Of a stretch of DNA of 45,088 bases, positions 385 to 39,548 are shown piece by piece; positions within the stretch are counted from its first letter, which is position 1; every line of letters begins with the position of its first letter. Position numbers and translations under genes: made by a program. A model generated the notes under the pieces. It was not told the DNA's origin. It did no database searches and saw only the letters and a program-made list of their open reading frames with translations. Source of the DNA: Halorubrum sp. CBA1125 (GTDB lineage Archaea; Halobacteriota; Halobacteria; Halobacteriales; Haloferacaceae); assembly GCF_009742825.1 (NCBI RefSeq), contig NZ_WPCE01000005.1:1-45088 (forward strand), given 5' to 3'.

Positions 385-810
385 ATGCGAATTTACTTCG
401 CTGCACCACTATTCTGTGAGGCAGAGACAACGTACAACGAGCGTGTTTGTGGAATGCTAGAGGAGCGGGGTCACTCCGTGTTTCTCCCGCAACGTGACGG
501 CTACGAGAATCTTGACGATCTACTGGATGATCCGGACATCGATTCAGTTGATGAGGCGAAAAACGAGATCTTTCAGCTCGACCGGCGGGAGATCCTCAAC
601 GCGGATCTATTGACAGCGATCTTGGACGGCCAGGTCCCCGATGAGGGAGTCGCCGTCGAGATCGGGATTGCACACGAAAACGACATCCCCGCGATCGGGC
701 TAAAGACGGATCAACGGAACGACCCACTGAACGCGATGGTCTTTAGTCCGCTTGAGGAACTGACCGGATCCCCTGCTGAACTCGTCGAAGCCGTACAACA
801 CTACGACTGA
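385..810 (+). CDS. Nucleoside 2-deoxyribosyltransferase family protein (copy 1)
   Basis: A 141-aa protein of the nucleoside 2-deoxyribosyltransferase (NDT) fold. The family exchanges the base of a 2'-deoxynucleoside or hydrolyses the N-glycosidic bond. Visible signs: the N-terminal MRIYFAAPLF strand, D81 and D86 in AILDGQVPDEG, the probable nucleophile E92 in VAVEIGIA, and N116 in DPLNAMVF. The length fits the compact family members. It is about 70% similar by eye to the copy at 10350-10778, so they are paralogues, and differs more from 1255-1788. The start was chosen from the promoter and from alignment with the paralogue. Substrate cannot be told from sequence; the neighbours (nucleoside hydrolase, deaminases, ECF importer) favour nucleoside salvage. 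Confidence 0.85.
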   Translation: MRIYFAAPLFCEAETTYNERVCGMLEERGHSVFLPQRDGYENLDDLLDDPDIDSVDEAKNEIFQLDRREILNADLLTAILDGQVPDEGVAVEIGIAHENDIPAIGLKTDQRNDPLNAMVFSPLEELTGSPAELVEAVQHYD

Positions 811-1254
811 CGTCGTTCCAGTCTAGGTCGCGGATGTCCGACTCGGTGTGTGTGGTTCCGTCACATACTCGAACGAACCGTTCTTCCCGCCAGCGGAAGG
901 TGAACTACTCTCGATCCGCTTCTCACCGTAGCTCGGGGATTGCCGACCGATACGCCAGCGATCGGGTGGATTGGCTTCTCCGAACCAGCACACCCGACCG
1001 GAAGTGTGCACTCGCCATCGTTTGCACCCTGTTCAAGGCCGATTTCGACACTCTCGGAGACGTCGTCTATTACTGGCTGATTCGTGGCGAACAGCATTAT
1101 CGTCTGGCGCGTCGACGCGGATACGGACCCAGTAGAGATGCGGCGACCCTGCAATTCTCCGGTGAAATGCCACGTGGCATCCCAAGACAGAACTGATGAG
1201 TCAACCCGAGTGCATTCGCCCAGCTTCACTCATCAGTCCACACTTGGGACGGTA
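811..1254. other. Intergenic stretch with an inverted repeat
   Basis: No convincing gene in 444 bp. Open frames on both strands overlap each other and match nothing known to me. A perfect 10-bp inverted repeat (ACTGATGAGT at 1192-1201 and ACTCATCAGT at 1228-1237) lies 18 bases beyond the stop codon of the minus-strand gene at 1255. It could form a 3' stem-loop in that transcript or be an end of a lost element. Confidence 0.4.
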
Positions 1255-1788
1255 CTAGAGGGCGTCGAGTTCTTCGATAATGAGATCCTCCAGATCTTCG
1301 AGGGATTCGTAGAGCCGGTGGTGCTCCGCTTCCCACTCACCGCCGTAATTATCGGCCGAAACGATGGATCCACCGCTGTCCCATATGAAGTACTCGACCT
1401 GCAAGTTCACGACGAGACCTTCGTTTTCGCCTGCGGTCCGGCTATCCGTCCGGTAGCCGACAATCGGTGTTCCGATCCCGTAGGCGTATCCGATCTCTGC
1501 AGAGGTGCCGCTGTCGGGGTCCGCGCCGTCGAGGTTTGCGAGGACGACATCTGCCTCGACGATTGCTTCACAGTTCCGTTGTCCGATACCCATCGCCCAC
1601 TCGTTCAGAGCCTCGGCCCGGTCGACGCTCACGGGCTCACCCGCGAGTTCGGTGATCGAGTCATCCCCGAGGTCTGTCGGATAGATGCACTCATACCCGT
1701 TTTCTTCGAGTGACGGAATGAGTCGTTCACGGACGAATCGTTCACCTTGAGGTGTAAACACCTGTGGTCCAGCGAGGTATACCTTCAT
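1255..1788 (-). CDS. Nucleoside 2-deoxyribosyltransferase family protein (copy 3, divergent)
   Basis: A 177-aa NDT-family protein beginning MKVYLAGPQVF. The conserved pieces are D87 in VVLANLDGAD, the probable catalytic E98 in GTSAEIGYAYG, and N128 in GLVVNLQVE, near which the family contacts the nucleobase and sugar. It is longer than the other two copies and resembles more closely the NDT type common in bacteria and archaea in general. It lies alone on the minus strand between the first NDT gene and an IS110 remnant. Possible roles are deoxyribosyl transfer or hydrolysis of (deoxy)nucleosides or nucleotides; the sequence does not decide. Confidence 0.85.
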   Translation of the reverse strand: MKVYLAGPQVFTPQGERFVRERLIPSLEENGYECIYPTDLGDDSITELAGEPVSVDRAEALNEWAMGIGQRNCEAIVEADVVLANLDGADPDSGTSAEIGYAYGIGTPIVGYRTDSRTAGENEGLVVNLQVEYFIWDSGGSIVSADNYGGEWEAEHHRLYESLEDLEDLIIEELDAL

Positions 1789-1977
1789 CGTGATACGCTA
1801 CGTCTAGACGCACCGACATAGGTGTTTTGCTGAGAAGGGCTCTTATGGGATGGAAGCCTGGTAAGTCTCCCACGTGCGTGAAGAGGTACTGGGGTAGTCA
1901 AAGGCCGATGATTCAACAGCGTCTTAGAAGGCGTGGCTTTGATTGGCCTACCTGCCAAGGACGCACTCTCATGGGAG

Positions 1978-2008
1978 GCCGCCCGGATGCCGCCAGCATC
2001 CAGGCGGC
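1978..2008 (+). other. Strong stem-loop upstream of the IS110 remnant
   Basis: GCCGCC (1978-1983) pairs with GGCGGC (2003-2008) and GGATGC (1985-1990) with GCATCC (1996-2001), with one C-A mismatch and a 5-base loop: a 12-bp stem. It lies about 85 bases before the ATG of the IS110-like recombinase remnant at 2091. In IS110-group elements the long noncoding left end encodes the bridge RNA that specifies donor and target. Whether this stem-loop belongs to such an RNA is inference. Confidence 0.3.
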
Positions 2009-2090
2009 GAACGCGAATAGGTGTAGCTTCCTTCACGCACAAATCGCTCCACAGGAACCAGGTACCACCTCGGAATCAGCCTTCATAAAG

Positions 2091-2456
2091 ATGACTCGTC
2101 ACGTCGCTGCTTTGGACGACGATGCCGAGGTTGTCGAAGAGTATGCCGGAGCCAAAGCGGCGCTCGAAGTAACCAGCAACTACTACACGATCTACGACAT
2201 CCTCGACGAACACCTCGACGTGGTTGCCGCAGATCCAACCCAAACTCAAGCGGTCGGCTAGGCTGAGGTGAAAAACGACCGACTCGACGCGGAGTTGCGC
2301 GAACAACTTCGCCGAGCCGGCATGATCGCTGAGAGTTGCGTCCCGTCCGAAGAACTCCGACAACGCCGCGCACTCGTGCACGGCCGGGAGTGGTTGGTCG
2401 AGAAGGGCACGGACTTCAAAAATGAAGACCACCCCCTGCTGGACAAAACCTATATA
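2091..2456 (+). pseudogene. IS110-family transposase, N-terminal remnant
   Basis: The frame reads MTRHVAALDDDAEVVEEYAG, then VTSNYYTIYDILDEHLDV and, after an in-frame TAG at 2259-2261, AEVKNDRLDAELREQL. This order matches the N-terminal half of haloarchaeal IS110 (DEDD) recombinases. The initial D-containing segment and about 15 residues after EVVEE are absent, one codon has become a stop, and similarity ends near 2456, so the Tnp20 half with the catalytic serine is gone. It ends just ahead of the nucleoside hydrolase promoter. Clearly non-functional. Confidence 0.75.
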
Positions 2457-2521
2457 CATGATCGGTTGGCCGAAATCCTTCAGGAAAATAGTTTTAATCC
2501 TCGTTATCAGTGTGGTCTGTA

Positions 2522-3445
2522 GTGACCAGAAAGATTCTTTTCGACACCGATCCAGGGTGTGACGACGCGTCCGCGCTCTCGCTCGCACTGGCGAGTGACG
2601 AACTCGAGGTCGTCGGCGTGACCACCGTTGCAGGGAATACGACGATCGAGAATACCACCCGGAACGCGCTGTCCGTGTTGGAATTGCACGATCGAACTGA
2701 CGTTCCAGTCGCCCGTGGTTGTGCCGCGCCGCTCTGGCGCCCACTCGAGACAGCGGAACACGTGCACGGTTCATCCGGCATCACCGGTTCACCACCGGTT
2801 CCCGACGTCGAAACGATCGATACGAGCGGGACCAGGTTCATGCTCGAACAAGTTTACGAGCACGGCGATGAACTGACGATCGTTGCCGTCGGTCCGTTGA
2901 CGAACGTCGCTACAGCGATCGCGATCGAACCGGATCTCCCCGAGTTGATCGACGAGATCGCCATTATGGGGGGTGCTGCTCTCTGTCCTGGGAACTCGAC
3001 GCCGGAGGCAGAATTCAACTTCTATGTCGATCCCGAAGCTGCCCAGCGTGTCGTTAGGGACGGGAATCCGCGTCTAATCGGACTGGACGTCACCCAGGAC
3101 GCAACATTGACGGCCGAGTTCGTCGAAGAACTCGCGGAACGGGATGACCCACATCGCACGCTGGCCGCATGGTTCGGCTACTCGGAGGTCGACGCGATCC
3201 GCGAGGGGGAGCTTTCTGGGGAACAGGTTGTCCACGACGTGACCGTGATAATCGACCTCATTGACGACATCCTCGAATACCGTCGGTTCCCCGTGAATGT
3301 CGGCACCGACGATGGGGACTTCCGCGGTGCCGTGGTCTGTGACGTGAACGACGTCACCGGAACCCCGCCAACGGCGAACGTCGCACTGGAGGTCAACGTT
3401 CCCGCCTTCCGGAACCGGATCGCGGAGCTGATCGAGAAACTATGA
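2522..3445 (+). CDS. Nucleoside hydrolase (IUNH family)
   Basis: A 307-aa inosine-uridine preferring nucleoside hydrolase homologue. It hydrolyses the N-glycosidic bond of (ribo)nucleosides to free base and ribose. The hallmark calcium-site motif DTDPGCDDA is at residues 8-16; TVAGN (about 36-40), an HGSSG segment, NFYVDPEAA and the late VVHDVT motif follow in family order. The GTG at 2522 is preferred because it places the motif at the usual distance from the start; a GTG at 2510 is also in frame. A TATA-like TTTTAAT lies at about 2491-2497. The stop overlaps the adenine deaminase start (ATGA), so the two are almost certainly cotranscribed and translationally coupled. Base preference is unknown. 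Confidence 0.9.
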   Translation: MTRKILFDTDPGCDDASALSLALASDELEVVGVTTVAGNTTIENTTRNALSVLELHDRTDVPVARGCAAPLWRPLETAEHVHGSSGITGSPPVPDVETIDTSGTRFMLEQVYEHGDELTIVAVGPLTNVATAIAIEPDLPELIDEIAIMGGAALCPGNSTPEAEFNFYVDPEAAQRVVRDGNPRLIGLDVTQDATLTAEFVEELAERDDPHRTLAAWFGYSEVDAIREGELSGEQVVHDVTVIIDLIDDILEYRRFPVNVGTDDGDFRGAVVCDVNDVTGTPPTANVALEVNVPAFRNRIAELIEKL

Positions 3446-5121
3446 GTTCCCAGACCCCTGTCGACCTCGTCGTTCGTGGAACAGTTGTAAACGTTCTCAC
3501 GGGGAGCCTGGAGGACCGATACGTGGCGGTAGACGGCGGTGAAATCGTGGGGTTCGGTGATAGGCCTGCACGGGAGCGGTACGAGGCGGCGTATCTGGCG
3601 CCGGGACTGATCAACTCCCACATGCACATCGAGTCGACGATGCTCTCGCTGCCACGGTACGGCGAGGCAGTCATCCCGCACGGCGTCACCGGGATCGTCG
3701 CCGATCCCCACGAAATCGGCAACGTTCTCGGCGTGGACGGCGTTCGTCAGTTGACAGTACACGCCGATCACACGCCGCTCCGTGTTCGATTCACCGTCCC
3801 GTCGTCGGTGCCGGCGTCGGACCTTCAGGATACGGGTGCGACTATCGACCCGGCAGACGTAGAACGGTTGCTCGCGACCGACCGGATCGTCGGTCTCGCC
3901 GAGGTGATGGACATCGAGGGTGTGGTCGCCGACGATGCAGCGGTTCACGCGAAGATCGAGGCGACCCGCAAACGAGGATTGACCGTCGACGGTCACATGC
4001 CTCGAGTCACGGGGAACCGCCTGCAGATGGCGGCCCGGTTTCTCGATACCGATCACGAGAGCCGGGCGCTCTCGGAGGCACGCGAGAAGGTGGAAGCGGG
4101 AATCAAGATCCAACTCCGTCAGGGATCCTCGAGCGAGAACCTTGAGGAGCTCCTCCCGCTCGTCGACGAGGTCGACTCCCGCCGACTCATGCTGTGTACG
4201 GACAACTTCTACATTAACGACCTGCAAGAACACGGCGGGATCGACGAATCCGTCCGGATGATGATAGAATACGGCGTCGATCCCGTCGAAGCGGTGCAAC
4301 TCGCTACGATCAACGTCGCCGAGACCTACGGGTTGCCCTACGGGCGGATAGCCCCCGGTGCGCCGGCTGACATTGTACTCCTCGACGATCTCGAGACGTG
4401 GGATGTGGACGCCGTCATGGTCGACGGAGTGATCGATCCGGTCGCCGATGTCACCGATCCGCCGCGTTATGAACTCGATCACAACACGGTTGATGTCGAC
4501 CGGTTAGATCCTTCCGACTTTGCGTACCCTGCTCCCCACGACGGTCCCTGCAGGATCCGTGCAATCGATCATACCGGCGAGATCCCGACAGAACGTGTCG
4601 AAACGGTGCCTGTGGCGGACCGCGTGCTCGCCCCAAACCCGGAGGAGGATCTACTTCCGGTTGCCGTTGTTGAGCGCCACGGGAAAGGCGGCGGGATCGG
4701 TAAAGGGTTCGTTCACGGCTTCGCACTCGAGCGTGGAGCTCTGGCGAGTACGATCGCCCACGACGCTCACAACCTCGTCGTCGTGGGAGCCAGTCACCGG
4801 GCGATGGCGGAAGCGGCGAACGAACTCCGTGATGTCGGTGGGGGCCTCACCGCGTTCGATCCCGAGAACGGTACGACAACCCTGCCGCTGCCGGTTGCCG
4901 GCCTGATCTCCGAACGCCCTGTTTCCGTAGTGGCGGAACAGTTCAAAGCCGTGCAGACTGCTACGCGCGAACTCGGTACCGAACTAGCTGGCGGTATCAT
5001 GGAACTGGACACCCTGACACTGGAGGTGATCCCGGAACTCAGAATAACGAACCACGGGCTGGTTGATGTCGAACAGATGGAACTCGTCGACCTCCTCGTC
5101 GCCGGCAGCGACGAAGAATGA
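3442..5121 (+). CDS. ade: Adenine deaminase
   Basis: A 559-aa amidohydrolase of the adenine deaminase (Ade) family, converting adenine to hypoxanthine and ammonia with a metal-dependent centre. Visible: the HxH motif in INSHMHIEST, ADPHEIGNVLG, LAEVMDIEGV, VDGHMPRVTG, TDHESRALSEA, and the strand-8 motif as LCTDNFY. The usual Ade text there is CTDD, so the second Asp is Asn here; the first, the likely metal ligand, is kept. The C-terminal Ade domain (HGKGGGIGKGFVHGFAL, about 412-428) is complete and the length is normal. It overlaps the nucleoside hydrolase by 4 bases, giving a logical route: adenosine to adenine to hypoxanthine. Confidence 0.93.
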   Translation: MSSQTPVDLVVRGTVVNVLTGSLEDRYVAVDGGEIVGFGDRPARERYEAAYLAPGLINSHMHIESTMLSLPRYGEAVIPHGVTGIVADPHEIGNVLGVDGVRQLTVHADHTPLRVRFTVPSSVPASDLQDTGATIDPADVERLLATDRIVGLAEVMDIEGVVADDAAVHAKIEATRKRGLTVDGHMPRVTGNRLQMAARFLDTDHESRALSEAREKVEAGIKIQLRQGSSSENLEELLPLVDEVDSRRLMLCTDNFYINDLQEHGGIDESVRMMIEYGVDPVEAVQLATINVAETYGLPYGRIAPGAPADIVLLDDLETWDVDAVMVDGVIDPVADVTDPPRYELDHNTVDVDRLDPSDFAYPAPHDGPCRIRAIDHTGEIPTERVETVPVADRVLAPNPEEDLLPVAVVERHGKGGGIGKGFVHGFALERGALASTIAHDAHNLVVVGASHRAMAEAANELRDVGGGLTAFDPENGTTTLPLPVAGLISERPVSVVAEQFKAVQTATRELGTELAGGIMELDTLTLEVIPELRITNHGLVDVEQMELVDLLVAGSDEE

Positions 5122-5346
5122 CTCCGGACGTCGCCCGTCTTCGGCGTAGAGCGCCACCTGCGCCGGAACGCGGACGAACCTTCGACAGTCGACAGCGTCC
5201 GAATTCCCGCGACGGTTTCCGATGTCCGCGTCGGCGAGGGTTTAGACTCTCACAAAGACGTGGTGTTGGCAGCCTCTCACGTCTTGGTTCACGACGATCC
5301 TATACCGAACTGTCGTTTCGCTGCCGAGGTAACCACAACAGTTTGA
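5122..5346 (+). pseudogene. In-frame open stretch after the ade stop codon
   Basis: Directly after the TGA of ade the same frame stays open for 74 codons to TGA 5344-5346. It reads like a haloarchaeal protein, for example RHLRRNADEPSTVDSVRI and VLAASHVLVHDDPIPNC, with acidic composition. There is no good start codon near its beginning. It may be the tail of a decayed gene or a former extension; I do not recognise the family. Confidence 0.25.
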
Positions 5347-5361
5347 CGAGAGGCCCATCCA

Positions 5362-6567
5362 ATGAACCCTCCTGACCAGATATCCAAGGCTTCGATCCGG
5401 CGCTGGCTCGCGTTGGTAGGCTTGCTCGTGGCGGCCGTGAATCTCCGGCCGGCGATCGCCTCGATTCCGCCACTTCTCGAGTTACTCAGAGCTGAACTCC
5501 AGCTGAGCTACAGCGTTGTCAGTCTGCTTACGACGATTCCCGTCTTCTGCATGGGGCTCTTCGCGTTCGTAACGCCGTCACTGATCGATCGGTACGGACG
5601 CGGACACACCTTGATTTGGGCCGTCGTCGCGATCGGTCTCGCGACCGTAGCCAGGATCGGGAGTCACAGCGTGGTCGTTCTCTTTGGAACGACCGTGCTG
5701 GTCGGGATCGCGATCGCGATCACACAGACGATCCTTCCCTCGCTAGTCAAAATCTACTTCCCGTCACGCGTCGCGCTGGCGACCGGTGCGTATACAGTCA
5801 GTCTCACCGTCGGCGCGATCCTGGCGGCCGGGTTAACCGCCCCCTTATACGTACTGTTCGACTCGTGGCCGCTATCACTCGCTGTGTGGGGGATACTCGC
5901 GTTCGTTGCCGTTCCGGGATTGATCCCGCTCGTACGTGACGACTCGTCGGAGCCTGATCGCTCACCTCCTGACGCCTCGAAGAGTGGGCCGATCCCGTGG
6001 CGGAACCCGCTGGCGTGGATCTTGATGCTCTTTTTTGCGATCAGTTCGACGATATTCTACTCAGGGTTGACGTGGCTGTCGGCTCGATACGTCGCGCTCG
6101 GGTGGGATGAAGCGACAGCCGGACTGTTACTGACCGCCTTCATGGTCGCGCAATTAGGAGGGATGGCACTCGTTTCTGCATACGGAGATAAATCGATCGA
6201 CCGCCGGCCGTGGCACGCACTCATGATCGCGATAGTCGTGATCAGTACTGGCGGCGTCGCGTTCACGCCGCTGTCGTATCCTTGGATCTGGGCGACGTTG
6301 CTCGGTGTCGGCACCGGCGGTCTGTTTACGCTCTCGCTCACGCTACCGATCGATTTCGCGACGGGAGAGAACGCTACCGATCGTCTATCGTCGATGGTGA
6401 TGGGAGGCGGCTACATGCTCGCGGCTGTCGGGCCGTTCGTGACCGGGGGAATCCGTGACCTATTCGGCAGCTACGTCCCTGCGTTCGTCGGACTCACAAT
6501 TCTGGGTGTCGTCCTCACAGTCTGTGCGGTCCGACTCTCCCCTCGCAGTTACGGAACGATCTCCTGA
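5362..6567 (+). CDS. MFS transporter, CynX/NimT-like
   Basis: A 401-aa major facilitator protein with about 12 hydrophobic segments and a hydrophilic central loop around residues 194-212 (DDSSEPDRSPPDASKSGP). The N-terminal VNLRPAIASIPPLLELL is the signature of the CynX/NimT branch of MFS, whose characterised members move cyanate or nitroimidazoles. The loop-2 motif is DRYGRGHTL. It follows adenine deaminase by 240 bp on the same strand and sits amid nucleoside genes, so a role in nucleobase or nucleoside movement is a reasonable inference, but neither substrate nor direction can be read from the sequence. Confidence 0.8.
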   Translation: MNPPDQISKASIRRWLALVGLLVAAVNLRPAIASIPPLLELLRAELQLSYSVVSLLTTIPVFCMGLFAFVTPSLIDRYGRGHTLIWAVVAIGLATVARIGSHSVVVLFGTTVLVGIAIAITQTILPSLVKIYFPSRVALATGAYTVSLTVGAILAAGLTAPLYVLFDSWPLSLAVWGILAFVAVPGLIPLVRDDSSEPDRSPPDASKSGPIPWRNPLAWILMLFFAISSTIFYSGLTWLSARYVALGWDEATAGLLLTAFMVAQLGGMALVSAYGDKSIDRRPWHALMIAIVVISTGGVAFTPLSYPWIWATLLGVGTGGLFTLSLTLPIDFATGENATDRLSSMVMGGGYMLAAVGPFVTGGIRDLFGSYVPAFVGLTILGVVLTVCAVRLSPRSYGTIS

Positions 6568-6731
6568 GGGACAACTGCTGTGCCCTACCCTACGATCTTC
6601 GACGGTCGTGTTGACAGATGTTAGGAAGCAGTTCGATCGGACTGTCGATAGGTGCCGTCGATGTCGAGTTTGGTTACACATGGACCCGTTTCCGTGGACG
6701 CCGATGTCTTCGATCAGAAATAAGAACTCTC

Positions 6732-6944
6732 TGCTCTGTTGAATCCGCAGAAGGCGTGCGAATCGGGTCACTCTGTACTCGGTTCAGGAGCGCTGTCGAG
6801 AGAATTTTGAGAAGGAATCTTGGCAGACAGGGAGAGAGATCGAAATCACCGAGTGAGTCGATCTAACACATCGACGACGAAGAGTGGAATAACCGCTCCT
6901 TCAGATACTGTGATCCCCGTGCAGTCATCAGATTCAACAGAGCA
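6732..6944. mobile_element. MITE-like element with 14-bp inverted repeats and 8-bp target duplication
   Basis: TGCTCTGTTGAATC at 6732-6745 and its exact complement GATTCAACAGAGCA at 6931-6944 bound 213 bp, and GAACTCTC stands immediately outside both ends (6724-6731 and 6945-6952) as a perfect 8-bp direct repeat. No reading frame inside looks like a transposase. Identical outer sequence bounds a second element at 15196-15405, although the interiors differ. An 8-bp duplication fits movement by an IS6-type transposase supplied elsewhere; the family assignment is inference. This element accounts for much of the 6568-7178 gene-free gap; the rest shows only the promoter region of the next gene. 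Confidence 0.8.
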
Positions 6945-7178
6945 GAACTCTCTGGACTCGATCTTCATATTTTCGGGGATATACTCCCTCCATCCGCGAA
7001 TCTACAAATTCACGAACTAGCAGACCTGCTACTATTGACACTAACACCCAGAGAACGTAGTATACTCCAAGTGGTAATACCGCTCCGATAACGGATAGAC
7101 TTCCGTTTAGCGATATTCACTGACAAAAAAAGTCCGATCCCCACAAATCTTATGTCCCACTATAGCGCTTGATAGTGT

Positions 7179-8024
7179 ATGTCAGCCAGGGACATCGATA
7201 TAAACAAATTCATCAAAGAATCCACGGAAGGCGAGAGTGGTATACTACAGTATAAGCCCGGAGACACCTTGGTCCATAATCTGAACCCCGTTACGAAAAT
7301 TGTCGTTGCGACCGGCCTCATCATCGGAGTGTGGATGTATCCCAACTTCGTCGCACCGGCGGTGATATTCGGGATCCTACTCGGAATCGTGTTCGCGTCC
7401 CGCCTGTACAGGAACATCCTTCCTGTGCTCGTGGTTGTCGGGGCTCCGCTCTTGTTCATGATGTTCACCATTCACGGCCTGTTCTATCCGGGGAACATGA
7501 CACCATACTACACGATTAGTCCAGTTCCTGTTATCGAGTCAATAACAATCTACGAGGAGGGTCTCCTCTTCGCCGCGATGTTCTTCTTCCGTATTATGGT
7601 GTTACTGACGGCGCTGCTGTTGGCGATCGTCTCGACGCACCCGCGGGAGTTCGGCGTCGCGTTCACGGAGAAGGGTATGCCGCCGAAACTGGCCTACGTC
7701 TTCCTCGCGGCACTCCAACTGGTTCCCGATATGCGTCGCCAAGCGAACAGTATCATGGAGGCCCAACAGTCGCGCGGGCTCGACATCCACGCCAACGTTT
7801 GGCAGCGGCTCAAGGCGTTCTTCGCGCTTATGACACCGTTGATCATCGGGACGCTCATTTCGGCCGAAACGCGCGCCCTAGCGTTGGAATCACGTGGATT
7901 CGGACGGACAAAAACGCCGACCTCGTTGTTCGAGACGACTGAAACGACAGTTGACTACATGCTTCAGGCGTGTACCGTCGTTGGAGTTATCGCTGCTGTC
8001 GGCTGGAGGGTGTTCCTCGCATGA
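7179..8024 (+). CDS. ECF transporter transmembrane component (EcfT)
   Basis: A 281-aa integral membrane protein with about six hydrophobic segments and the cytoplasmic coupling helices of EcfT/CbiQ proteins: the two family Xaa-Arg-Gly motifs appear as QQSRGLD (about residue 197) and LESRGFG (about 237). EcfT joins the S component to the ATPases in energy-coupling factor importers. A TATA-like TCTTATG lies about 30 bases before the ATG. Its TGA overlaps the ATG of the ATPase gene (ATGA), showing coupled translation. A long N-terminal tail precedes the first helix. The substrate-binding partner is probably the S component at 13967-14620. Confidence 0.9.
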   Translation: MSARDIDINKFIKESTEGESGILQYKPGDTLVHNLNPVTKIVVATGLIIGVWMYPNFVAPAVIFGILLGIVFASRLYRNILPVLVVVGAPLLFMMFTIHGLFYPGNMTPYYTISPVPVIESITIYEEGLLFAAMFFFRIMVLLTALLLAIVSTHPREFGVAFTEKGMPPKLAYVFLAALQLVPDMRRQANSIMEAQQSRGLDIHANVWQRLKAFFALMTPLIIGTLISAETRALALESRGFGRTKTPTSLFETTETTVDYMLQACTVVGVIAAVGWRVFLA

Positions 8025-9766
8025 CTGAGATCAATTTTAACGACGTGTCGTTCCGTTACACAACCAAACGAGACGTTGCCGCAGTACACGAACTCGATTT
8101 CACGATCGAATCTGGCGAGTTCGTCGGGATCACTGGTCCGAGTGACGCGGGAAAAACGACGCTGGCCAGACTGATCCCGGGATATATTCCTCACTTCTAC
8201 GACGGCCAAATGGCCGGTACCGTTCAGGTTGGAGGCATCGACGTTCGCGAGAGTTCGATGCGAGAACTTTCCGATCAGGTTGGGTTCCTCTTCGAGAATC
8301 CCTTCAATCAGCTAACCGGGGCGAGTATGACAGTTCTCGAGGAGGTCGCGTTCGGTCTCGAACAGATGGGAGTCGAACGCGAGAAGATCTTCGGTCGTGT
8401 CGACGAAGCGCTGGAAACCGTCGGCATCGCAGACCTGATACGACGGAAACCCCAGGAACTGTCGGGGGGACAGTCCCAGCGCGTCGCGATCGCGTCTATC
8501 CTCGCACTCGAACCGGACGTGCTGGTTCTCGACGAACCGACCTCACAACTCGATCCGCACGGCACGGAGGAGGTGTTCCAAGTCCTCGCGAACATGGATC
8601 GGAAGGAGTACACGATGGTCATCATCAGTCACGATCTGGAACGGTTGGTTCCACACCTCGATCGATTGATGGTTGTCGACGGGGGGTCGGTCGCCCTAGA
8701 CGACACGCCACAGAATGTCCTGTCCAGCGACGACGAGGTCATAAATCAGCTCAATGTTCCAGAGAGCATCGAGATCGGAAAGTACCTCCGAGACAAGGGA
8801 CTGGTGTCCCCGGAGAAGCATCTCCCGCTGAGCGTCGCCGACACGGTCGAAGAACTCTCGCCGCATGTTCGCAGATCGGGACGGCCCGAACCGTCAACCA
8901 CCAACGGCGGCGTCGACAGAGACGTCGGACCGGCGTCGAATCCCGCGACTGACGTTGAGGATCCGTTGATTAAGTTCGAGAATGTCGACTATTATTACAA
9001 CAACGAAATCCAGGCGCTTCAGGACATCTCTATCGAAATGGCTGAGGGCTGCGTCTGTGTCATCGGCCAGAACGGTGCCGGCAAAACGACGTTCGTCAAA
9101 CACCTCAACGGACTGTTGAAGCCGACGAATGGGACCGTCTACGTCAACGGAATCGACACACAAGATAACTCTATCGCTCAGCTATCTCGCCACGTTGGGC
9201 TCAGTTTCCAGAACCCAGACGATCAGATCTTCCACGACACCGTTGAGAAGGAGATCCGCTTCGGGCCGAAGAACCTCGGTTACCCCGAAGAGCGAATCGA
9301 CGAACTTGTCGACAGACAACTAGAACGCTTCGAGTTAGAAGACGTCCGCGACGAGGACCCGTACAACCACGGACTCGCAACCCGGAAGCACATCGCCGTC
9401 GCGTCGGTGCTCGCCATGGACACGCCGGTAGTCGTCCTTGACGAGCCAACTGGGGGGCAGGACAAGCCGGGTAACGAACTGCTTGGAGACGTCATTGACG
9501 ATCTAGTCTCCGAGGGAAAACTGGTGATCACCATCACACACGACATCCCCTTCGCGAGAGACCACGCTGATCGTGTGATCGCACTTTGTAATGCGGAAGT
9601 GTTAATAGACGGTTCGCCTCGAGAGGTGTTCAATGAGGGATCTACACTCGCCGAAACGATGGTCGAACCGCCAAAGGTCACTCAGATCGGCAAACAACTC
9701 GATCTGCCACGCACGTTGCTGACGAACGACGAACTCTTCAAGTACGTGGACACTTCGGCCGACTAG
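8021..9766 (+). CDS. Fused double ATPase of an ECF transporter (EcfA-EcfA')
   Basis: A 581-aa protein with two ABC ATPase domains joined by a hydrophilic linker (about 285-315). Domain 1: Walker A GPSDAGKTT (39-47), signature ELSGGQ (about 146-151), Walker B VLVLDEP (about 166-172). Domain 2: Walker A GQNGAGKTT (about 348-356), Walker B VVVLDEP (about 469-475), but the place of the LSGGQ signature reads HGLATRKH, so that signature is degenerate. One weakened composite ATP site is therefore expected, as in many asymmetric ABC pairs. Both domains have the Q-helix features of ECF ATPases, for example SFQNPDDQIF in domain 2. It overlaps ecfT by 4 bases; together they form the energising module. 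Confidence 0.92.
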   Translation: MTEINFNDVSFRYTTKRDVAAVHELDFTIESGEFVGITGPSDAGKTTLARLIPGYIPHFYDGQMAGTVQVGGIDVRESSMRELSDQVGFLFENPFNQLTGASMTVLEEVAFGLEQMGVEREKIFGRVDEALETVGIADLIRRKPQELSGGQSQRVAIASILALEPDVLVLDEPTSQLDPHGTEEVFQVLANMDRKEYTMVIISHDLERLVPHLDRLMVVDGGSVALDDTPQNVLSSDDEVINQLNVPESIEIGKYLRDKGLVSPEKHLPLSVADTVEELSPHVRRSGRPEPSTTNGGVDRDVGPASNPATDVEDPLIKFENVDYYYNNEIQALQDISIEMAEGCVCVIGQNGAGKTTFVKHLNGLLKPTNGTVYVNGIDTQDNSIAQLSRHVGLSFQNPDDQIFHDTVEKEIRFGPKNLGYPEERIDELVDRQLERFELEDVRDEDPYNHGLATRKHIAVASVLAMDTPVVVLDEPTGGQDKPGNELLGDVIDDLVSEGKLVITITHDIPFARDHADRVIALCNAEVLIDGSPREVFNEGSTLAETMVEPPKVTQIGKQLDLPRTLLTNDELFKYVDTSAD

Positions 9767-9847
9767 GCGGATCATCGTCGATATTTTCGGGTGCAGGAGG
9801 ATTGTACTCAGCCGATCCATTCGAGAAGTGGTTGGTGGACTGTCGTT

Positions 9848-10237
9848 TTATTCGAGAAGCGTTTCGCTATCCATCGCGTGCGGAAGGATCTCTGCCATCG
9901 TGTATTTGACGTACCCATCACCTTCGTCAACGACGATCGGGAACTCATCGTCGCAGAACTCCCGCAAACTCTGTCGACACATGCCACAAGGGGCGTTTCC
10001 GGACTGTTGGGCCGACGTTAGCGCGAGGGCATCTAAGTCGGTGTGACCGTCACTGACGGCTTTCGAGAGTGCAACTTCCTCCGCGTGGAGCGTGTTCGTG
10101 TAATTCGCGAACTCAATGTTACAACCCGTGTAGACCACGCCGTCGGTCGTCCGGAGAGCGGCTCCGACCTGGTACTCGGAGTACGGCGCATAAGCTCGGT
10201 CCAGAGCGCGTTCCGCCTCTTCAAGGAGTTTCTCCAT
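9848..10237 (-). CDS. cdd: Cytidine deaminase
   Basis: A 129-aa cytidine/deoxycytidine deaminase, the size of the tetrameric form, converting (deoxy)cytidine to (deoxy)uridine. Zinc-site motifs: TLHAEEVA (H51, catalytic E53) and PCGMCRQ (C84, C87). The first ligand is His, as in the dimeric E. coli enzyme, whereas short tetrameric enzymes usually have Cys; this is an uncommon mix. The APYSEYQVGAAL and GCNIEFANY segments bind substrate in the family. ATG 10237 gives the family length; the open frame extends upstream without homology. It follows the minus-strand NDT gene by 112 bp and probably shares its transcript, consistent with deoxynucleoside salvage. Confidence 0.93.
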   Translation of the reverse strand: MEKLLEEAERALDRAYAPYSEYQVGAALRTTDGVVYTGCNIEFANYTNTLHAEEVALSKAVSDGHTDLDALALTSAQQSGNAPCGMCRQSLREFCDDEFPIVVDEGDGYVKYTMAEILPHAMDSETLLE

Positions 10238-10349
10238 ACCCACTATGGAAGAACTGTCCGTATAACTGTGCCGCAAACATATCAGGTGGTACTTATGTAT
10301 AGAAAGCGGACCTATCAAGATACGTTTCTCGATTTCCGGAAGTCCAGGA

Positions 10350-10778
10350 TCAGTCGGCGTAATCGTTGACCGTTTCAAGGAGTTCCTGTGGGGTTTCAAC
10401 AAGTTCCTCGAGGGGACTGAAGACCATCGCGTTCAGTGGGTCGTTCCGTCGATCCGTCTTCAGCCCGATCGCGGGGATGTCGTTTTCGTGTGCGATGGCG
10501 ATCTCGATTGCAACTCCCTCATCCGGGACCTGTCCGTCGAGGATCGCGGTCAACACGTCCGCCTCCAGCACTTCGTTCCTGTCCACACGAAAAATCTCGT
10601 GTTGAGCCTCTTCTACCGTGTCGAATTCGGGTTGCTGCAGGAGCTTTTTGACACCACCAGTGCCATCGCGCTGGGGGAGAAATGCGGAATGTCCAGCGTC
10701 TTCTAATGCCCCACAGACCCGTTCGTTATACTCTAGTTCTGCTTCACTGAACAACGGAGCTGCGAAGTAGATTCGCAT
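10350..10778 (-). CDS. Nucleoside 2-deoxyribosyltransferase family protein (copy 2)
   Basis: A 142-aa paralogue of the protein at 385-810, sharing MRIYFAAPLF, DGQVPDEGVA, the probable nucleophile E92 (VAIEIAIAHEND) and RNDPLNAMVFSPLEEL. The least alike segment is residues 40-60 (TGGVKKLLQQPEFDTVEEAQ), which in this fold lies near the substrate pocket entrance, so specificity may differ between copies. A TATA-like TTTATATAAT lies about 20-30 bases upstream on the minus strand, so the ATG at 10778 is close to the transcription start. The cytidine deaminase gene is next downstream. Confidence 0.87.
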   Translation of the reverse strand: MRIYFAAPLFSEAELEYNERVCGALEDAGHSAFLPQRDGTGGVKKLLQQPEFDTVEEAQHEIFRVDRNEVLEADVLTAILDGQVPDEGVAIEIAIAHENDIPAIGLKTDRRNDPLNAMVFSPLEELVETPQELLETVNDYAD

Positions 10779-11213
10779 ACTGTTAGAACTTATAACTATT
10801 ATATAAATAATTTTCTCTATTAATCATTTATCATATACATACGCTCAATGTATTTTTCCTCGAATCCATTGTCCGGCCGACAGTCTCATCTCGAGAAATC
10901 CCTCGAAGGCGATCGTTTCCTAGGAGTCACGGAGAACTGATCATGATCCGGACGAACCATCAACTGGAAATTCCGTAGATTTGTCTAGTACGAAATGGAC
11001 GACTCCAACAGGGGAGATACCCACCAACACAGTGACCGTGATATTCCGACTTGGCGAATCTGAGACGTTTACCGGTTCAAACGTACGGCTATCCCGACCT
11101 GTTTATGTCGGGCGGAATCGGCATATTCATTCAATCCGACATTATAAATTCACATATCTATATTATACAATTTTGGGAGCGAACTAAGTACAATTCCCGC
11201 GTGGATCCACATC
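10779..11213. promoter_or_regulatory. Divergent promoter region between copy-2 NDT and the DUF2419 gene
   Basis: This 435-bp gap holds no convincing gene. Its left edge (10783-10815) is very A/T-rich and contains the minus-strand TATA-like element; AGTTATAAG lies between it and the ATG and recurs before the S-component gene (about 13925-13933). Its right edge has CTATATTATACAATTTT (about 11158-11174), a TATA-like element for the plus-strand gene at 11214. Middle part: nothing recognised. Confidence 0.4.
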
Positions 11214-12206
11214 ATGACAGCAAACCGTGTTCGAAGGACTGTTTCGGACGTCCTCTGCTGGTACGATCTCGATCACGTGACCGTTCACGCGGATAGGATC
11301 GAGGCGTTCCTCAAGGATCTGGCGATCGGGCAGGAGGGATCGGACCCATCAGGGCCCCAGGTCCTCAGCGAGGCCGAATACGGTCTCGACACGATCGTCG
11401 ATTACCTGCTCGTGAGCAACTCTCTGAACTTCGTCTATGACGACATCGACACCCAACGGCGGTTCACGACGGAGTACGACGGCGAAATCTGGACTGGGGC
11501 CTACGCGCTGTGGGCGAGCATGCGACGTGCACTGGATGAGGGACGCCCCATCACAGATGGAGAATATCTCCGTACGCTCACTCTGGAAGAAACGAAGGAC
11601 ATCTTCCGTGGTGATCCGCCGATCCCGATGATTCAGGCCCGTCACGAGATCCTCACGAGCATGGGGACTACACTTTGTGACATCGCGGACGGTCACTTTC
11701 ACACCGAGGTGTCTCTGGACGAACCACTCTGGTTGTTCGACGATGGGAACGGGCTCGTGGAGTGGCTGACCTCCGAGTTCCCCCGGGCGTACGGTGACGA
11801 ACGGACATACAGCGGTGACACGGTCTATTTTGACAAGAAAGCACAGCTCTCCGCCGGCATCCTGTACGGTCGGTTCGCCGATAGACCCGGCTTCGAGATC
11901 CCCGATCTGGACGAGCTCACGGTGTTCGCGGATTACCTCATTCCGGCGCTCCTCCGTAACGTGGGGATCCTCGAGTACTCCCCGAGTCTGGCGCGAAAGG
12001 TAGACGAGAAGCGTCCGATCGCCGAAAACAGTCCCGAGGAAGTAGAGATCCGTCTCGCCACGGTCCACGTTGGCGAAAAACTCCTGGAACGGGTCAATGC
12101 CGGGCGGTCGGAGCCGATCACGGCTTACACTCTCGATCAGTTGTTATGGCTAGCCGGACGCGAGCGTGATCTCGTCCACCACTTAACTGAGACCACAGCG
12201 TACTAG
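11214..12206 (+). CDS. Queuosine salvage protein (DUF2419/Qng1-like N-glycosylase)
   Basis: A 330-aa protein recognised as the DUF2419 family, whose characterised members (Qng1) hydrolyse queuosine 5'-phosphate to release queuine. Family landmarks in order: NFVYDD (72-77), IWTGAYALWASMRRAL with GRPITDGEYL (92-119), EETKDIFRG (125-133), LVEWLTSEFP (181-190), DKKAQLSAGILYGRF (207-221), DLDELTVFADYLIP (231-244) and SPEEVEIR (273-280). Length fits. The second Lys of DKKAQ stands where many homologues have KRAQ. Archaea carry archaeosine in tRNA, not queuosine, so a 7-deazapurine nucleotide or nucleoside salvaged from the environment is the likely substrate. It lies between the transport module and the S component, suggesting a joint role. 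Confidence 0.85.
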   Translation: MTANRVRRTVSDVLCWYDLDHVTVHADRIEAFLKDLAIGQEGSDPSGPQVLSEAEYGLDTIVDYLLVSNSLNFVYDDIDTQRRFTTEYDGEIWTGAYALWASMRRALDEGRPITDGEYLRTLTLEETKDIFRGDPPIPMIQARHEILTSMGTTLCDIADGHFHTEVSLDEPLWLFDDGNGLVEWLTSEFPRAYGDERTYSGDTVYFDKKAQLSAGILYGRFADRPGFEIPDLDELTVFADYLIPALLRNVGILEYSPSLARKVDEKRPIAENSPEEVEIRLATVHVGEKLLERVNAGRSEPITAYTLDQLLWLAGRERDLVHHLTETTAY

Positions 12207-12491
12207 TACGTTCGTCACCTCGAACTGTCGGATATTCAATTATTCTTGGAGAGGTTATCGAACGTTCGCAGAAGGGCAACTATGAGTGAACGGATCGCTC
12301 GGGCCCAGACACTGTCGGTGGACAGCCCGGCGTTACCGCCGCTTTCCCCGAAACCGGAGTCCAAAGACGTTGCTGCGCTGGTCACTCATACGACCGGCGA
12401 CGCTGCATCGGCGCCAAGCTAGGGTCGAACCTTCGTCCGTCTGAAATTCGTTCTCGGCAGTAACAAAGGGCCGACATCAGCCCGGACGCTC

Positions 12492-13437
12492 TTACGCAGA
12501 CTGGCGAAAAACATCAGCGGTGAAACAGTTAATGAGTCCGTAGATTGGTGCCCCAGCAAGATTCAGCGTTCGCAGGAAGCCATAGGTCCGAGCGGCCTAT
12601 TCCAAGCCCTGCTTGGACAGACCACGGAACTTCTTGATCCATGGCTCAAACAGCGACCAGAGACACTCCGCTTGGTTGGTGTGAATGCCTTCTTCTGACA
12701 CGTATCTCTCGTCGTACACGACTGATGGTGGTCCCGTTCCAGTTGCTGATACGGCGGATACTCATCAATCCAGACCTCTCCCAACGGCTGGGAGAGGTCT
12801 TCAGCCTCTTTCGATCAATAGCTTGAATTCGTTAGCGAACGTCGTTCCATCCCCGGCAGAGATCACCGAAGCACGTCGCAGCACGCCGCGACGAGCGTCA
12901 TCTCATCGTCCTGCCCACCACTTCAGCGTGTGCGACTACCCCTAGACGACCCGCCGCGGGACAGCCCGTCCCGCGGTGGGTCGCGTCCTTTGAAACTCGA
13001 ACACACCTGCTGACTCTCACCGACCTGTGTTGGCCCGTTGAGAGTATGATCAATACGATCCCAGACGACGTGGAAGCCGCGTTTCAGCGCGGTTTCCACG
13101 TTACGAATCGCCGAGGAAACCGTATTGTTGGCTCGCTCAAGCAGCGAAGCAATCTGGTTGATGCTGAGCAACGAATCAGCGTAGAATGCAAAGCGACGAG
13201 GGACTCACCGGGACGAGTTCCGCATCGTAGAACGGCGTCCCGAGTGTATAGGTACTCATGAAGCCGCAGCCGCGGCGCCAGATACGGTCGAGATCATCCC
13301 ACGTTCGGACAGCTGTGGCTCCACAGTTCAGGAAGGGTGCCCTGGTCCCAGATCGTCTTGAGACGCCGTTCGACGCCCTCGTCGAGCGGCTCGGTCCGAA
13401 ATTCCAAAGTGTCAAGCGACACAAGTTGTTGAACCAT
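12492..13437 (-). pseudogene. IS1595-family (ISXO2-like) transposase, frameshifted
   Basis: Minus-strand pieces in correct order reconstruct a transposase: MVQQLVSLDTLEFRTEPLDE from ATG 13437, ADSLLSINQIASLLERANN and VETALKRGFHVVWDRIDHT near 13160-13060, GEVWIDEYPPYQQLERDH near 12780, then in another frame HTNQAECLWSLFEPWIKKF, an in-frame TAG after QGLE, and RTYGFLRTLNLAGAPIYG ending at TAA 12492. At least two frameshifts and one stop. The Cys-rich N-terminal ribbon is damaged (CPNVG, then stop). It separates the DUF2419 gene from the ECF S component. Between 12207 and 12491 only a 46-codon frame (ATG 12282) is seen, with no homology recognised. Confidence 0.75.
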
Positions 13438-13966
13438 CCCACCTCATGCTACCGATTGTGACCAAACAACCTGCATTCGGCGGGATGCTTTCCGTACGAC
13501 GGAATCTTTTCGCTAGGTTGAACAAGAGCGAATCCGGATAACTGCAACCACCTGAAACGTATCGTGGACAGGCATTTCGGCAACTTCAGTTCGTTTTCGA
13601 CGGTCGGGGCGAGGCGCAATCCGTCCCGCTGACGACCCAAGCCGCCTCCCGGAGATCACACGCCGGCTCACCCAGCAGACAACCCTACCCCTAATGGGCA
13701 GACTGGTGAAGTCGGACAATGAACCGATAGAAACGGAGGAAGTCTCACCAGGGGGATTCGGACGTGAACCGGCTTCTTCCGACGAAGTCAGGTCTTTCCT
13801 CTGCTCCAAAGGCGTGGACGAAACTGTGTCTTGCCTCTTTTCGACCAATTCGTTTGCGTTATTTAGATTATATATGCGCCCGACCCAAGGATACATCAAT
13901 ATTGATTTTCCTGTAATAATACAATAGTTATAAGAAAATTGGTTCAATTCCTTGGTATGAGGTTCC
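13438..13966. promoter_or_regulatory. Gap holding the S-component promoter
   Basis: The right 120 bp (about 13850-13966) is markedly A/T-rich, with ACAATAGTTATAAG at about 13920-13933 as a TATA-like element 33-46 bases before the ATG at 13967. The left 400 bp holds no gene I can support; minus-strand open frames there look like noise. Confidence 0.4.
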
Positions 13967-14620
13967 ATGTCAAGTGAAACTGTAACAGAACAGACGGCCA
14001 ATGTGGAGACATCGTTCATCGGGAGCATATCCGACGAGTTTACAACGTTCGCCTGGGTGCTGATTCCTGTCGCGGTCGGGTTAAACCTGACCGGCGGGTT
14101 TCTCGTCCGCATGCTACGGATCCCGTTGTTCATGGACACGATCGGAACAGTTCTGTTGGCGATCATCGCTGGGCCGTTCGCGGCAGCACTCGCTGGCATA
14201 GTTACCAACCTCGTTCTGGGGGCGATCCAGTCGCCAACGTCGATCCCATTCGCGATCACGCAGGTAGCCATCGCGTTCGCTGCCGGCTACCTCGCATACA
14301 GAGGCTGGTTTAGAATCCTCAACCGAAAGGATTACCTGAAACTGATCGGGGCGGGTATCGTGATCGCGGCCGTATCGACGATCGTCAGCACCCCCATCGT
14401 CGTTCTTGTATTCGGCGGTGTGACCGGAAGTGCAACCAGTGCACTCACCGGATTCTTCTTGGCGACTGGTGCGGGGATCGTCGAAGCGGTGCTGAGCCAG
14501 CAGATCATCACATCACCAACTGATAAGATCGCGACGGTCATCATCTCCGTCTACCTGGCACGCCAGATTCCGACGCGGTACCTCACGAGCAAAGGACACA
14601 GAGCACTCTACGAGGAGTAA
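13967..14620 (+). CDS. ECF transporter substrate-binding (S) component
   Basis: A 217-aa, almost wholly hydrophobic protein with about six membrane segments and the layout of ECF S components: a short polar N-terminus, a Gly/Asn-rich early region (GLNLTGGFLVRMLRIPLF), MDTIGTVLLAIIAGPFAAAL and the Ala-rich ALAGIVTNLVLGAIQSP that packs on EcfT, then a polar C-terminal tail (PTRYLTSKGHRALYEE). It probably pairs with EcfT-EcfA at 7179-9766, the only energising module in the window, although an IS1595 remnant and the cdd/NDT/DUF2419 genes lie between. The subfamily is not one whose substrate I can name; the neighbourhood suggests a nucleoside or nucleobase-like compound, possibly a 7-deazapurine. 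Confidence 0.8.
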   Translation: MSSETVTEQTANVETSFIGSISDEFTTFAWVLIPVAVGLNLTGGFLVRMLRIPLFMDTIGTVLLAIIAGPFAAALAGIVTNLVLGAIQSPTSIPFAITQVAIAFAAGYLAYRGWFRILNRKDYLKLIGAGIVIAAVSTIVSTPIVVLVFGGVTGSATSALTGFFLATGAGIVEAVLSQQIITSPTDKIATVIISVYLARQIPTRYLTSKGHRALYEE

Positions 14621-14697: not shown

Positions 14698-15056
14698 TCA
14701 GATGATCTCGCTGGGTAACTCGTCGGCCAGTCTGACGCAAGTCCCCTCGACCGTAGGCCCCGCCGTTTCGTCGATATGCCTTGGGGCGGTCAGATAGACG
14801 CAGGCGGCCGCGACGCTCGATGGCGGACAGCCGTTCGTGAGGGTTGTCCCATCGGCGCATTCTGCGCGTTCGTTCGCGCGCCGGCGAATGTGTGGTACTC
14901 TTCAATAACGAATCCGCAGTCCTCGCAGACAGTTTCCTTTATGTTCGTGGTGACGTGTCCTCCATACTCGGGACACTGGTTTGCGCTCGACTCCGTTTGG
15001 ATGTCTTCGTCGAAGCCAGGCTCGTAGCTATCTCTGATTGCCATTGTTCTCACCAT
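14698..15056 (-). pseudogene. TFB remnant: zinc ribbon joined to the C-terminal core
   Basis: From ATG 15056 the minus strand reads MVRTMAIRDSYEPGFDEDI, then a zinc ribbon with one ligand lost (CPEYGG for CPECGG) and an intact CEDCG. A frameshift follows, and near 14830-14760 another frame reads PPSSVAAACVYLTAP, which resembles the TFB core repeat, ending at TGA 14698. About two-thirds of a normal TFB is missing, so this is an internally deleted remnant. Its first 130 bp match the region at 93-222. Confidence 0.65.
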
Positions 15057-15195
15057 GTTCAGGAACTCCCAGTATAGCGAGCCCCTCACCCATCGAAGGA
15101 TAAAAAGACGCTATCGAGTACGGAATTCGGTTCAGCTAGATCGGGACTCAAACGGCAGCGTCTGAGTTACTGTTGTGCACCCCTTTATAAATGAG

Positions 15196-15405
15196 TGCTC
15201 TGTTGAATCCGATGAAGACACGAGGATAACCGATTCACAGCTCCCATTTACTCCCGAATCTACGAGGTTTCAGTTAGCTTCACCAGTCAGTATCTGCTGG
15301 GAAAGACGACCTCACGAAACTCAGAGCTAGAAATCATTCGGAACAGCTGTTCGTCCAGCCAAATCCATGCCTGATCCTGACGCATTCTGTGGATTCAACA
15401 GAGCA
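15196..15405. mobile_element. Second MITE-like element, same inverted-repeat ends
   Basis: TGCTCTGTTGAATCC (15196-15210) and GGATTCAACAGAGCA (15391-15405) form a perfect 15-bp inverted repeat around 210 bp, almost the same size as the element at 6732-6944, but the interior differs. The flanking octamers TAAATGAG and GATAGAAC do not match, so no target duplication is seen; recombination after insertion could explain that. The rest of the 15057-15579 gap holds only the promoter of the MATE gene (CGTTTACAAT at about 15547-15556). Confidence 0.7.
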
Positions 15406-38267: not shown

Positions 38268-39548
38268 TTACGACGTTACCTGTTCTTGAGGTGCGAACGC
38301 ACCAGTTTCCTTGTCAAACAGGAACGTCGATGGCTGTGCCAACCAGCCGTTACTCCTATCGCCGCCATCCGTAGCGGGACTCGGAGTTACTTTCTGTCGA
38401 ATGTTCTCCGCACCGTTCACATCTGCGTTCGCCACCATACCACACTCATCGCAGACGTACAGCCCACGTTCAACACGATTCGTGTCGCGCTTGCGACCAC
38501 AACACGAACACGACTTCGAGGTATCTCGCTCGGGCAACTCTTCGAGCGTGATGCCCTCCATCTCTGCTTTGTATTCGAGCAGGTCAGTGAATCGGTCGAA
38601 CGCCCACGAATGGAGGTCAAGGTTACCGTGTTTGCCCCAGTCTGTTACCTCGCCATTCTCCTCATCCTCGCGGATGCCGGAGAGGTCACCGATCACGATG
38701 GTTCCGACTCCTTGGTCAACACATCGCTGAACGATGTGTTTCGAGAGCGTGTGGAAGTAGTGAGTGCGGCGAGCCGCCTTCTTGTGGTTCAGCCGCGTGG
38801 CCTGCTCGGAGTTCGAGTCGTCACACTGAGCGATCCGCTTGCTGAAGTAGTAGTCGTCCTGCTTCAGACAGTTGAGTGGGTATAGCTCGGCGTAGCCGTC
38901 CTCGTAGGCGAGTGCTGCGAAGTTGTTGATGCCGAGGTCAACACCCACCGTCTTTTCACCCGGTGCTTCGGCCACTTCGATCTCAACTTTACACACGAAG
39001 TGTAGCTCCCACTCCTCACCCGTCCAGACTGCCCGAACCTGTCGGACGTTCTCTACGGTGGAGAGGTCTACGTCGGGGCGAGTCTGGTATTCGCAGAGGA
39101 TAAAGTCCGACCAATACTCCTTGAGGTTCGACCCCTTTGAGAGTCGAACACGGTTGTACTGGGTGTCGAGTTTGAAGCCAGCGGCTTTGAACGTTACCGT
39201 CGAACGCGGGTGTTCGTCGCCGTGTTTGCGGTAGCCGGGCGGGTTCGCTCTCGCATTTCCGTTACGTCGTTTGCCGTACCAGCTGTTGAACGCCTCAGCG
39301 AGTTCTTGGAGGACTCGCTGACTTGACTGCGAATGCAGGTCAGCATAGCGTTCGTGTGACTTCAGGTACGCGGTGAGCTCGTTGTGGTTGGGGATGTGAT
39401 CGATTTCATCCCAAATCCGACTACACGTCCACCGTCCGACGTTCCAGAGTTTCGAGGCGGCGAACCCGAGCGAATCAAGATCGTCCTGTACCCGAGACTG
39501 ATCCCGTATGGAAGCAGTGTAGGTGCGAGTGACGACCTGATACGCCAT
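38268..39548 (-). CDS. tnpB: TnpB RNA-guided nuclease (element A)
   Basis: A 426-aa intact TnpB. N-terminal recognition region LWNVGRW and LHSQSSQRVLQELAEAFNSW, KRRNG, then RuvC I Asp in VGVDLGINNFAA (D203), zinc ribbon CSCCGRKRD...CDECG and RuvC III Asp in NADVNGAENIRQ. At the RuvC II position the usual Glu is absent: IVIGDLSGIRED has Gly (287) where other TnpBs, including the pseudogenes in this window, have Glu. A nearby Glu (E294) could substitute. TnpB cuts DNA guided by an RNA from the element right end. About 60% alike by eye to copy B. Confidence 0.9.
   Translation of the reverse strand: MAYQVVTRTYTASIRDQSRVQDDLDSLGFAASKLWNVGRWTCSRIWDEIDHIPNHNELTAYLKSHERYADLHSQSSQRVLQELAEAFNSWYGKRRNGNARANPPGYRKHGDEHPRSTVTFKAAGFKLDTQYNRVRLSKGSNLKEYWSDFILCEYQTRPDVDLSTVENVRQVRAVWTGEEWELHFVCKVEIEVAEAPGEKTVGVDLGINNFAALAYEDGYAELYPLNCLKQDDYYFSKRIAQCDDSNSEQATRLNHKKAARRTHYFHTLSKHIVQRCVDQGVGTIVIGDLSGIREDEENGEVTDWGKHGNLDLHSWAFDRFTDLLEYKAEMEGITLEELPERDTSKSCSCCGRKRDTNRVERGLYVCDECGMVANADVNGAENIRQKVTPSPATDGGDRSNGWLAQPSTFLFDKETGAFAPQEQVTS

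Follow-up and report, generated by a model that had tools for sequence, protein, structure and literature searches.

The DNA window analysed here comprises positions 1 to 45,088 (45,088 bp) of contig NZ_WPCE01000005.1 of Halorubrum sp. CBA1125 (GCF_009742825.1), a fragmented assembly of 379 contigs and 84% completeness. Positions 385-14620 carry genes of nucleoside metabolism and an energy-coupling factor (ECF) transporter, consisting of the S component EcfS, the transmembrane coupling component EcfT and a fused EcfA1-EcfA2 ATPase. A first-pass annotation had listed three nucleoside 2-deoxyribosyltransferase (NDT) family proteins, an IUNH nucleoside hydrolase coupled to adenine deaminase (Ade), cytidine deaminase (CDA), a DUF2419 homologue, a permease and the three ECF parts. 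All of them have intact reading frames and significant family matches (Table 1). The permease, called 'CynX-type' in that list, is placed by Pfam in the major facilitator superfamily (MFS), and nothing finer than MFS was found.

The gene order is NDT1, NDT2, IS110 debris, IUNH-Ade, MFS, a short element with inverted termini, EcfT-EcfA, CDA and NDT3, DUF2419, IS1595 debris and EcfS, followed on the 3' side by a tfb fragment and a MATE-family-like transporter. The frames of IUNH and Ade overlap by 4 bp, and Ade is translationally coupled to IUNH; EcfT and EcfA also overlap by 4 bp. EcfT and the two EcfA-type ATPase domains are the parts expected of the dedicated module of a group I ECF transporter. 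The window S is found some 4.2 kb past the 3' end of A, whereas in other haloarchaea S stands directly upstream of T-A and the three genes are contiguous or nearly so, indicating that the gene order of the window has been rearranged. No remnant of a second S gene was found upstream of the window T by tblastn.

Table 1. Features annotated in the island and at its borders.
Feature	Position	Strand	Evidence
tfb (transcription factor IIB) fragments	about 51-227, 14966-15106	direct orientation	84% identical over 144 bp
NDT1, nucleoside 2-deoxyribosyltransferase family	385..810	+	PF05014 E 1e-18
NDT2, nucleoside 2-deoxyribosyltransferase family	1255..1788	-	PF05014 E 1e-26
Decayed IS110-family transposase	about 1839-2447		matches annotated IS110 transposases
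IUNH nucleoside hydrolase	2510..3445	+	PF01156 E 4e-82; RihA structures 3g5i/1yoe E 6e-49; DTDPGCDDA motif intact
Adenine deaminase (Ade)	3442..5121	+	PF13382 E 7e-55, PF01979; TIGR01178 469.8 bits vs 472.5 cut-off
MFS permease, local only	5362..6567	+	PF07690
EcfT, transmembrane coupling component	7179..8024	+	PF02361 E 2e-27; adjoins S in relatives
Fused two-domain EcfA1-EcfA2 ATPase	8021..9766	+	TIGR04520 and TIGR04521 above cut-off; motifs
Cytidine deaminase (CDA)	9848..10237	-	TIGR01354 above cut-off
NDT3, NDT1 paralogue	10350..10778	-	PF05014 E 1e-16; 73% identical to NDT1
DUF2419/QNG1 (Q_salvage) homologue	11214..12206	+	PF10343 E 1e-53; solved QNG1 7uk3/7u07 E 2e-44
Decayed IS1595-family transposase, between DUF2419 and EcfS	about 12590-13395		71% match to annotated IS1595 transposase
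EcfS, S component, CD3073 family, predicted nucleoside binder	13967..14620	+	NCBIfam NF045596 E 3e-33; AlphaFold2 (AF2) model; PDB fold matches

Identity and fold of the S component

The best family match of the window S was NF045596 (115 bits, model positions 3-172 of 174), and the same model matched all 38 aligned S proteins, the window S included. The model is named 'CD3073 family putative ECF transporter S component', a name that carries no substrate. The possibility that S would match a family of known, unrelated substrate, which the first-pass annotation had considered, was thus not borne out. No papers were found under the CD3073 locus names. The window S had no Pfam match, the QueT family PF06177 included, and its match to the folate family model was weak (22.7 bits against 60).

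The AF2 model of the window S had a mean pLDDT (predicted local distance difference test) of 90.7. Its 14 best PDB fold matches were all ECF S components (RibU, ThiT, PanT, FolT and others), with probabilities of 0.95-1.00 and modest E values of 0.03-0.4. By this model the protein has the six-helix S-component fold. The nearest solved protein by profile search was FolT (5d0y, E 6e-9), which shares the fold and binds a pterin ligand. Asp64 of EfFolT contacts the pterin (PMC4525288). The Asp of the FolT S-D-L motif is probably this residue; it aligns with Asn81, which is nearly invariant in the window S family and would be the counterpart of the pterin-contacting Asp. The window S thus appears to differ from FolT in this residue, and its folate match is weak.

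Gene context and predicted substrate

Searching 391 haloarchaeal genomes for the family identified 12 genomes with genuine S loci, 13 loci in all; a further two hits, with E values near 1e-3 (chance level), were left out. With the further haloarchaea and many bacteria of a named scan, the non-redundant loci (given as L numbers), counted by hand, came to 20 haloarchaeal and 22 bacterial. Nucleoside-type genes lay near S in 34 of the 42 loci, or in 28 without counting ADP-ribosylglycohydrolase. Among the haloarchaeal loci, IUNH and/or adenine deaminase was close in 12, the window included, ADP-ribosylglycohydrolase (PF03747) was found in 6 more, and 2 had neither (L019, L028). The bacterial loci contained IUNH in 10, most with a PfkB kinase, purine/uridine phosphorylase in 4, adenosine deaminase in 1 and DeoC in 1.

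IUNH was near S in L017, L018, L020, L024, L026, L027, L038, L040, L054, L056 and ten Chloroflexi loci, and Ade in L016, L027 and L056. PfkB occurred in the Chloroflexi S operons. PNP_UDP_1 stood immediately 3' of the ATPases in four Acidimicrobiia-type loci (L033, L034, L036, L037), adenosine deaminase overlapped the start of S in Arthrobacter castelli (L031), and in Dorea (L052) S was closely preceded by the DeoC aldolase gene. The S family with nucleoside-enzyme neighbours spans haloarchaea, Chloroflexi, Actinomycetota and one Firmicute, and by gene order its linkage to nucleoside genes extends beyond haloarchaea. Two S components in tandem were seen in one Chloroflexi operon (L058:9320-10579), with the order PfkB-IUNH-IUNH-S-S-T-A-A.

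IUNH was present in 11 of 12 S-positive and 132 of 379 S-negative haloarchaea (Fisher P 1e-4, relatedness ignored). Six S loci outside the window were less than 10 kb from IUNH against 0.10 expected (P about 1e-9, relatedness ignored). IUNH followed by Ade near S-T-A was found in three haloarchaeal genera, namely Halorubrum (the window), Natrialba and Natrinema. Judged by this gene order, the conserved unit consists of S, T, A, IUNH and Ade. It is highly improbable that the ECF parts and nucleoside genes of the window are a chance pile-up in a mobile, IS-rich region, with an S that no longer works with T-A. The IS110, IS1595 and tfb debris, the displaced S and the presence of S in only 2 of 52 Halorubrum genomes would agree with such a pile-up, but no frame of S, T, A, IUNH or Ade is broken, and the same genes are found linked in other genera.

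The conserved nucleoside-enzyme context in other genomes points to nucleosides as the cargo and strongly supports the earlier proposal of an ECF importer serving nucleosides. We consider it likely that the window S, T and fused A1-A2 form an ECF importer of nucleosides; adenosine, inosine and other purine ribonucleosides are the most likely cargo. Following the general ECF mechanism, the separated S and T-A of the window would work together: S would take an extracellular nucleoside, dock on EcfT, topple and release it inside, driven by ATP at EcfA. IUNH would split the N-glycosidic bond of the imported nucleoside to give the base and ribose, and Ade would convert adenine to hypoxanthine for purine salvage or as nitrogen source. 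The NDT proteins probably act on 2'-deoxynucleosides.

The ribose would enter carbon metabolism through the PfkB kinase in Chloroflexi and probably by oxidation in some haloarchaea. In L017 and L018, MR_MLE (enolase superfamily) and FAA_hydrolase genes lie near S-T-A and IUNH, with short-chain and epimerase-type dehydrogenase, metallo-beta-lactamase-fold and IclR-type genes. Ribose degradation in Haloarcula uses a pentose dehydrogenase, a lactonase, an enolase-superfamily ribonate dehydratase and a 2-keto-3-deoxypentanonate dehydratase (PMC8551123). In view of this pathway, the neighbours in L017 and L018 make it plausible that the ribose set free there is oxidised. Similar IUNH/sugar-acid clusters in L087 and L088 contain NDT and a binding-protein-dependent ATP-binding cassette (ABC) permease, and no ECF was detected within the stretch read; it looks as if the ABC permease takes the place of the ECF importer.

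Several points weigh against a nucleoside importer. The window S scored 115 bits, below the curated NF045596 cut-off of 180 bits, and so falls short of formal NCBI membership of the family that its relatives match. Other genes and IS debris part the window S from T-A over 4.2 kb, leaving co-expression unproven. Eight of the 42 S loci had no recognised nucleoside gene nearby, including 6 of the 22 bacterial ones, one of which (L032) is cut by a contig end; many S loci are related and hence not independent. In six haloarchaeal loci (L021, L022, L023, L025, L035, L041) an ADP-ribosylglycohydrolase-family gene replaces IUNH beside S. It may encode a riboside-cleaving enzyme, and this subgroup might import a different riboside.

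The IUNH and ADP-ribosylglycohydrolase families act on several kinds of riboside. This breadth, together with the replacement of IUNH in the six loci, would suit another riboside or base as the cargo (nicotinamide riboside, a free nucleobase, ribose or an ADP-ribose-derived riboside), acted on by IUNH and its relatives. We regard such a cargo as unlikely, because the substrates common to the partners in other phyla (adenosine deaminase, purine/uridine phosphorylase and DeoC) are ordinary nucleosides.

The first-pass annotation had also allowed for a deazapurine cargo. The cargo would then be 7-deazapurines, as nucleosides or as bases (queuosine, archaeosine or preQ0 precursors), for tRNA modification, with release by DUF2419 or by an IUNH acting like QueK. 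DUF2419 is located between A and S in the window. It has a full-length Q_salvage domain (PF10343 positions 8-269 of 285) related to solved QNG1, a queuosine 5'-phosphate N-glycosylase, and may release queuine from queuosine 5'-phosphate. QueK, a nucleoside hydrolase acting on queuosine in some bacteria, and Qng1 are characterised queuine-releasing enzymes, and QueT and QrtT are ECF S components (PMC11130926). Another haloarchaeon (L065:5002-10581) has queD-, queE-, folE- and queC-like genes some 2 kb from its DUF2419/QNG1 homologue, a context that suggests a 7-deazaguanine role for DUF2419 in archaea.

However, DUF2419 was present in only 4 of the 391 haloarchaea; it was not near S in any other S locus read, and no S gene was found in three other haloarchaeal DUF2419 regions. 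We therefore rejected it as a conserved partner of the importer. A strong QueC match was found in 14 of 15 genomes examined, the window genome included, so that the host probably makes preQ0 itself. QueT/QrtT importers resemble the window system in their ECF architecture and purine-like cargo, but the window S matches NF045596 and not QueT or QrtT, and Ade, adenosine deaminase, purine nucleoside phosphorylase and DeoC, enzymes of ordinary nucleosides, do not suit queuosine. With QNG1 rare, an S that is not QueT and a host that has QueC, a deazapurine cargo is very unlikely, and we rejected it as the main explanation.

ATPase asymmetry and known transporters

Walker A and Walker B motifs are present in each half of the window EcfA, with LSGGQ in the first half only; GLATRKH stands in place of the LSGGQ-x-QR signature in the EcfA2 half (9371-9391). 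In the S-linked modules read, forms ending in R-K or R-G replace this signature in the second ATPase, such as LSPTWRKM (Chloroflexi), LSLSWRKR (Acidimicrobiia) and LDLAHRKH (Arthrobacter), and the first ATPase, where captured, kept LSGGQ or LSGGE. The degenerate second signature was found in the window, L016, L019, L020, L022-L028, L031, L033-L045 and L053-L059. It recurs across phyla. With the second signature degenerate, one composite ATP site is probably weak or inactive. A second ECF with a QueT-like S (PF06177) adjoins the S-T-A locus of Halorubrum sp. SD626R (L025:3569-7081); its ATPase is canonical in both halves (LSKGQRQR in the second).

We lean slightly towards the wider view that these systems are a widespread ECF class (Archaea, Chloroflexi, Actinomycetota, Firmicutes) for nucleosides as carbon and nitrogen source rather than micronutrients, with an asymmetric ATPase pair carrying one conserved degenerate signature. 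ECF transporters are described as importing vitamins, metals and other micronutrients. No nucleoside substrate of an ECF S component was found in the open-access papers searched; subscription journals may hold one. For this known type of transporter, nucleosides would probably be a new class of substrate. The 'novel nucleoside transporter' of Mycoplasma bovis was rejected as an ECF precedent, being described as a UgpE-type ABC permease. The PnrA/Bmp-type nucleoside ABC importer also takes up nucleosides with ATP, but uses a binding protein and another permease type and lacks S and T components; one PnrA/Bmp-type binding protein is encoded in L027. The nucleoside importer would give an orphan S-component family of several phyla a probable substrate class and haloarchaea living on nucleic acid debris a possible uptake route. 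Bacterial and archaeal orthologues are at hand for testing the S family.

Local neighbours and mobile surroundings

NDT proteins of the window type are rare (6 of 391 haloarchaea, the window genome counted). NDT lies near IUNH in L086, L087 and L088, as does an NDT2-type relative (67% identical) in L090, and a role in the same metabolism is therefore plausible. NDT is plausibly an add-on to the S/T/A/IUNH/Ade unit. CDA and NDT3 share a strand, with 112 bp between them, and are probably co-transcribed. CDA-like DNA was found throughout the genus Halorubrum, and the tie of CDA to the importer is unproven for this reason. No MFS homologue was near S in the other loci read. CDA, MFS and QNG1 are local neighbours whose relevance to the importer is unproven. 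Selection for the whole set, as first suggested, holds for S, T, A, IUNH and Ade and plausibly for NDT, but is unproven for CDA, MFS and DUF2419. The co-occurrence with S in other genomes, proposed earlier as a check, was seen for nucleoside genes and not for DUF2419.

The reported insertion sequence (IS) and miniature inverted-repeat debris is real, with IS110, IS1595 and tfb remnants and two short elements (about 6733-6943 and 15197-15403) sharing the inverted termini GCTCTGTTGAATC...GATTCAACAGAG. The two tfb fragments frame the island. No near-identical island was found on plasmids, the matches among the records listed being IS and tfb fragments only. In the search for DNA-related islands in Halorubrum, the matches were for the most part to IS1595, a gene of the CDA type and short stretches. 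Farther along the window, two long intact frames (38268-39548, minus strand, and 42569-43843, plus strand) share about 72% DNA identity and resemble transposon-encoded proteins of the TnpB type, with a zinc finger at the C terminus.

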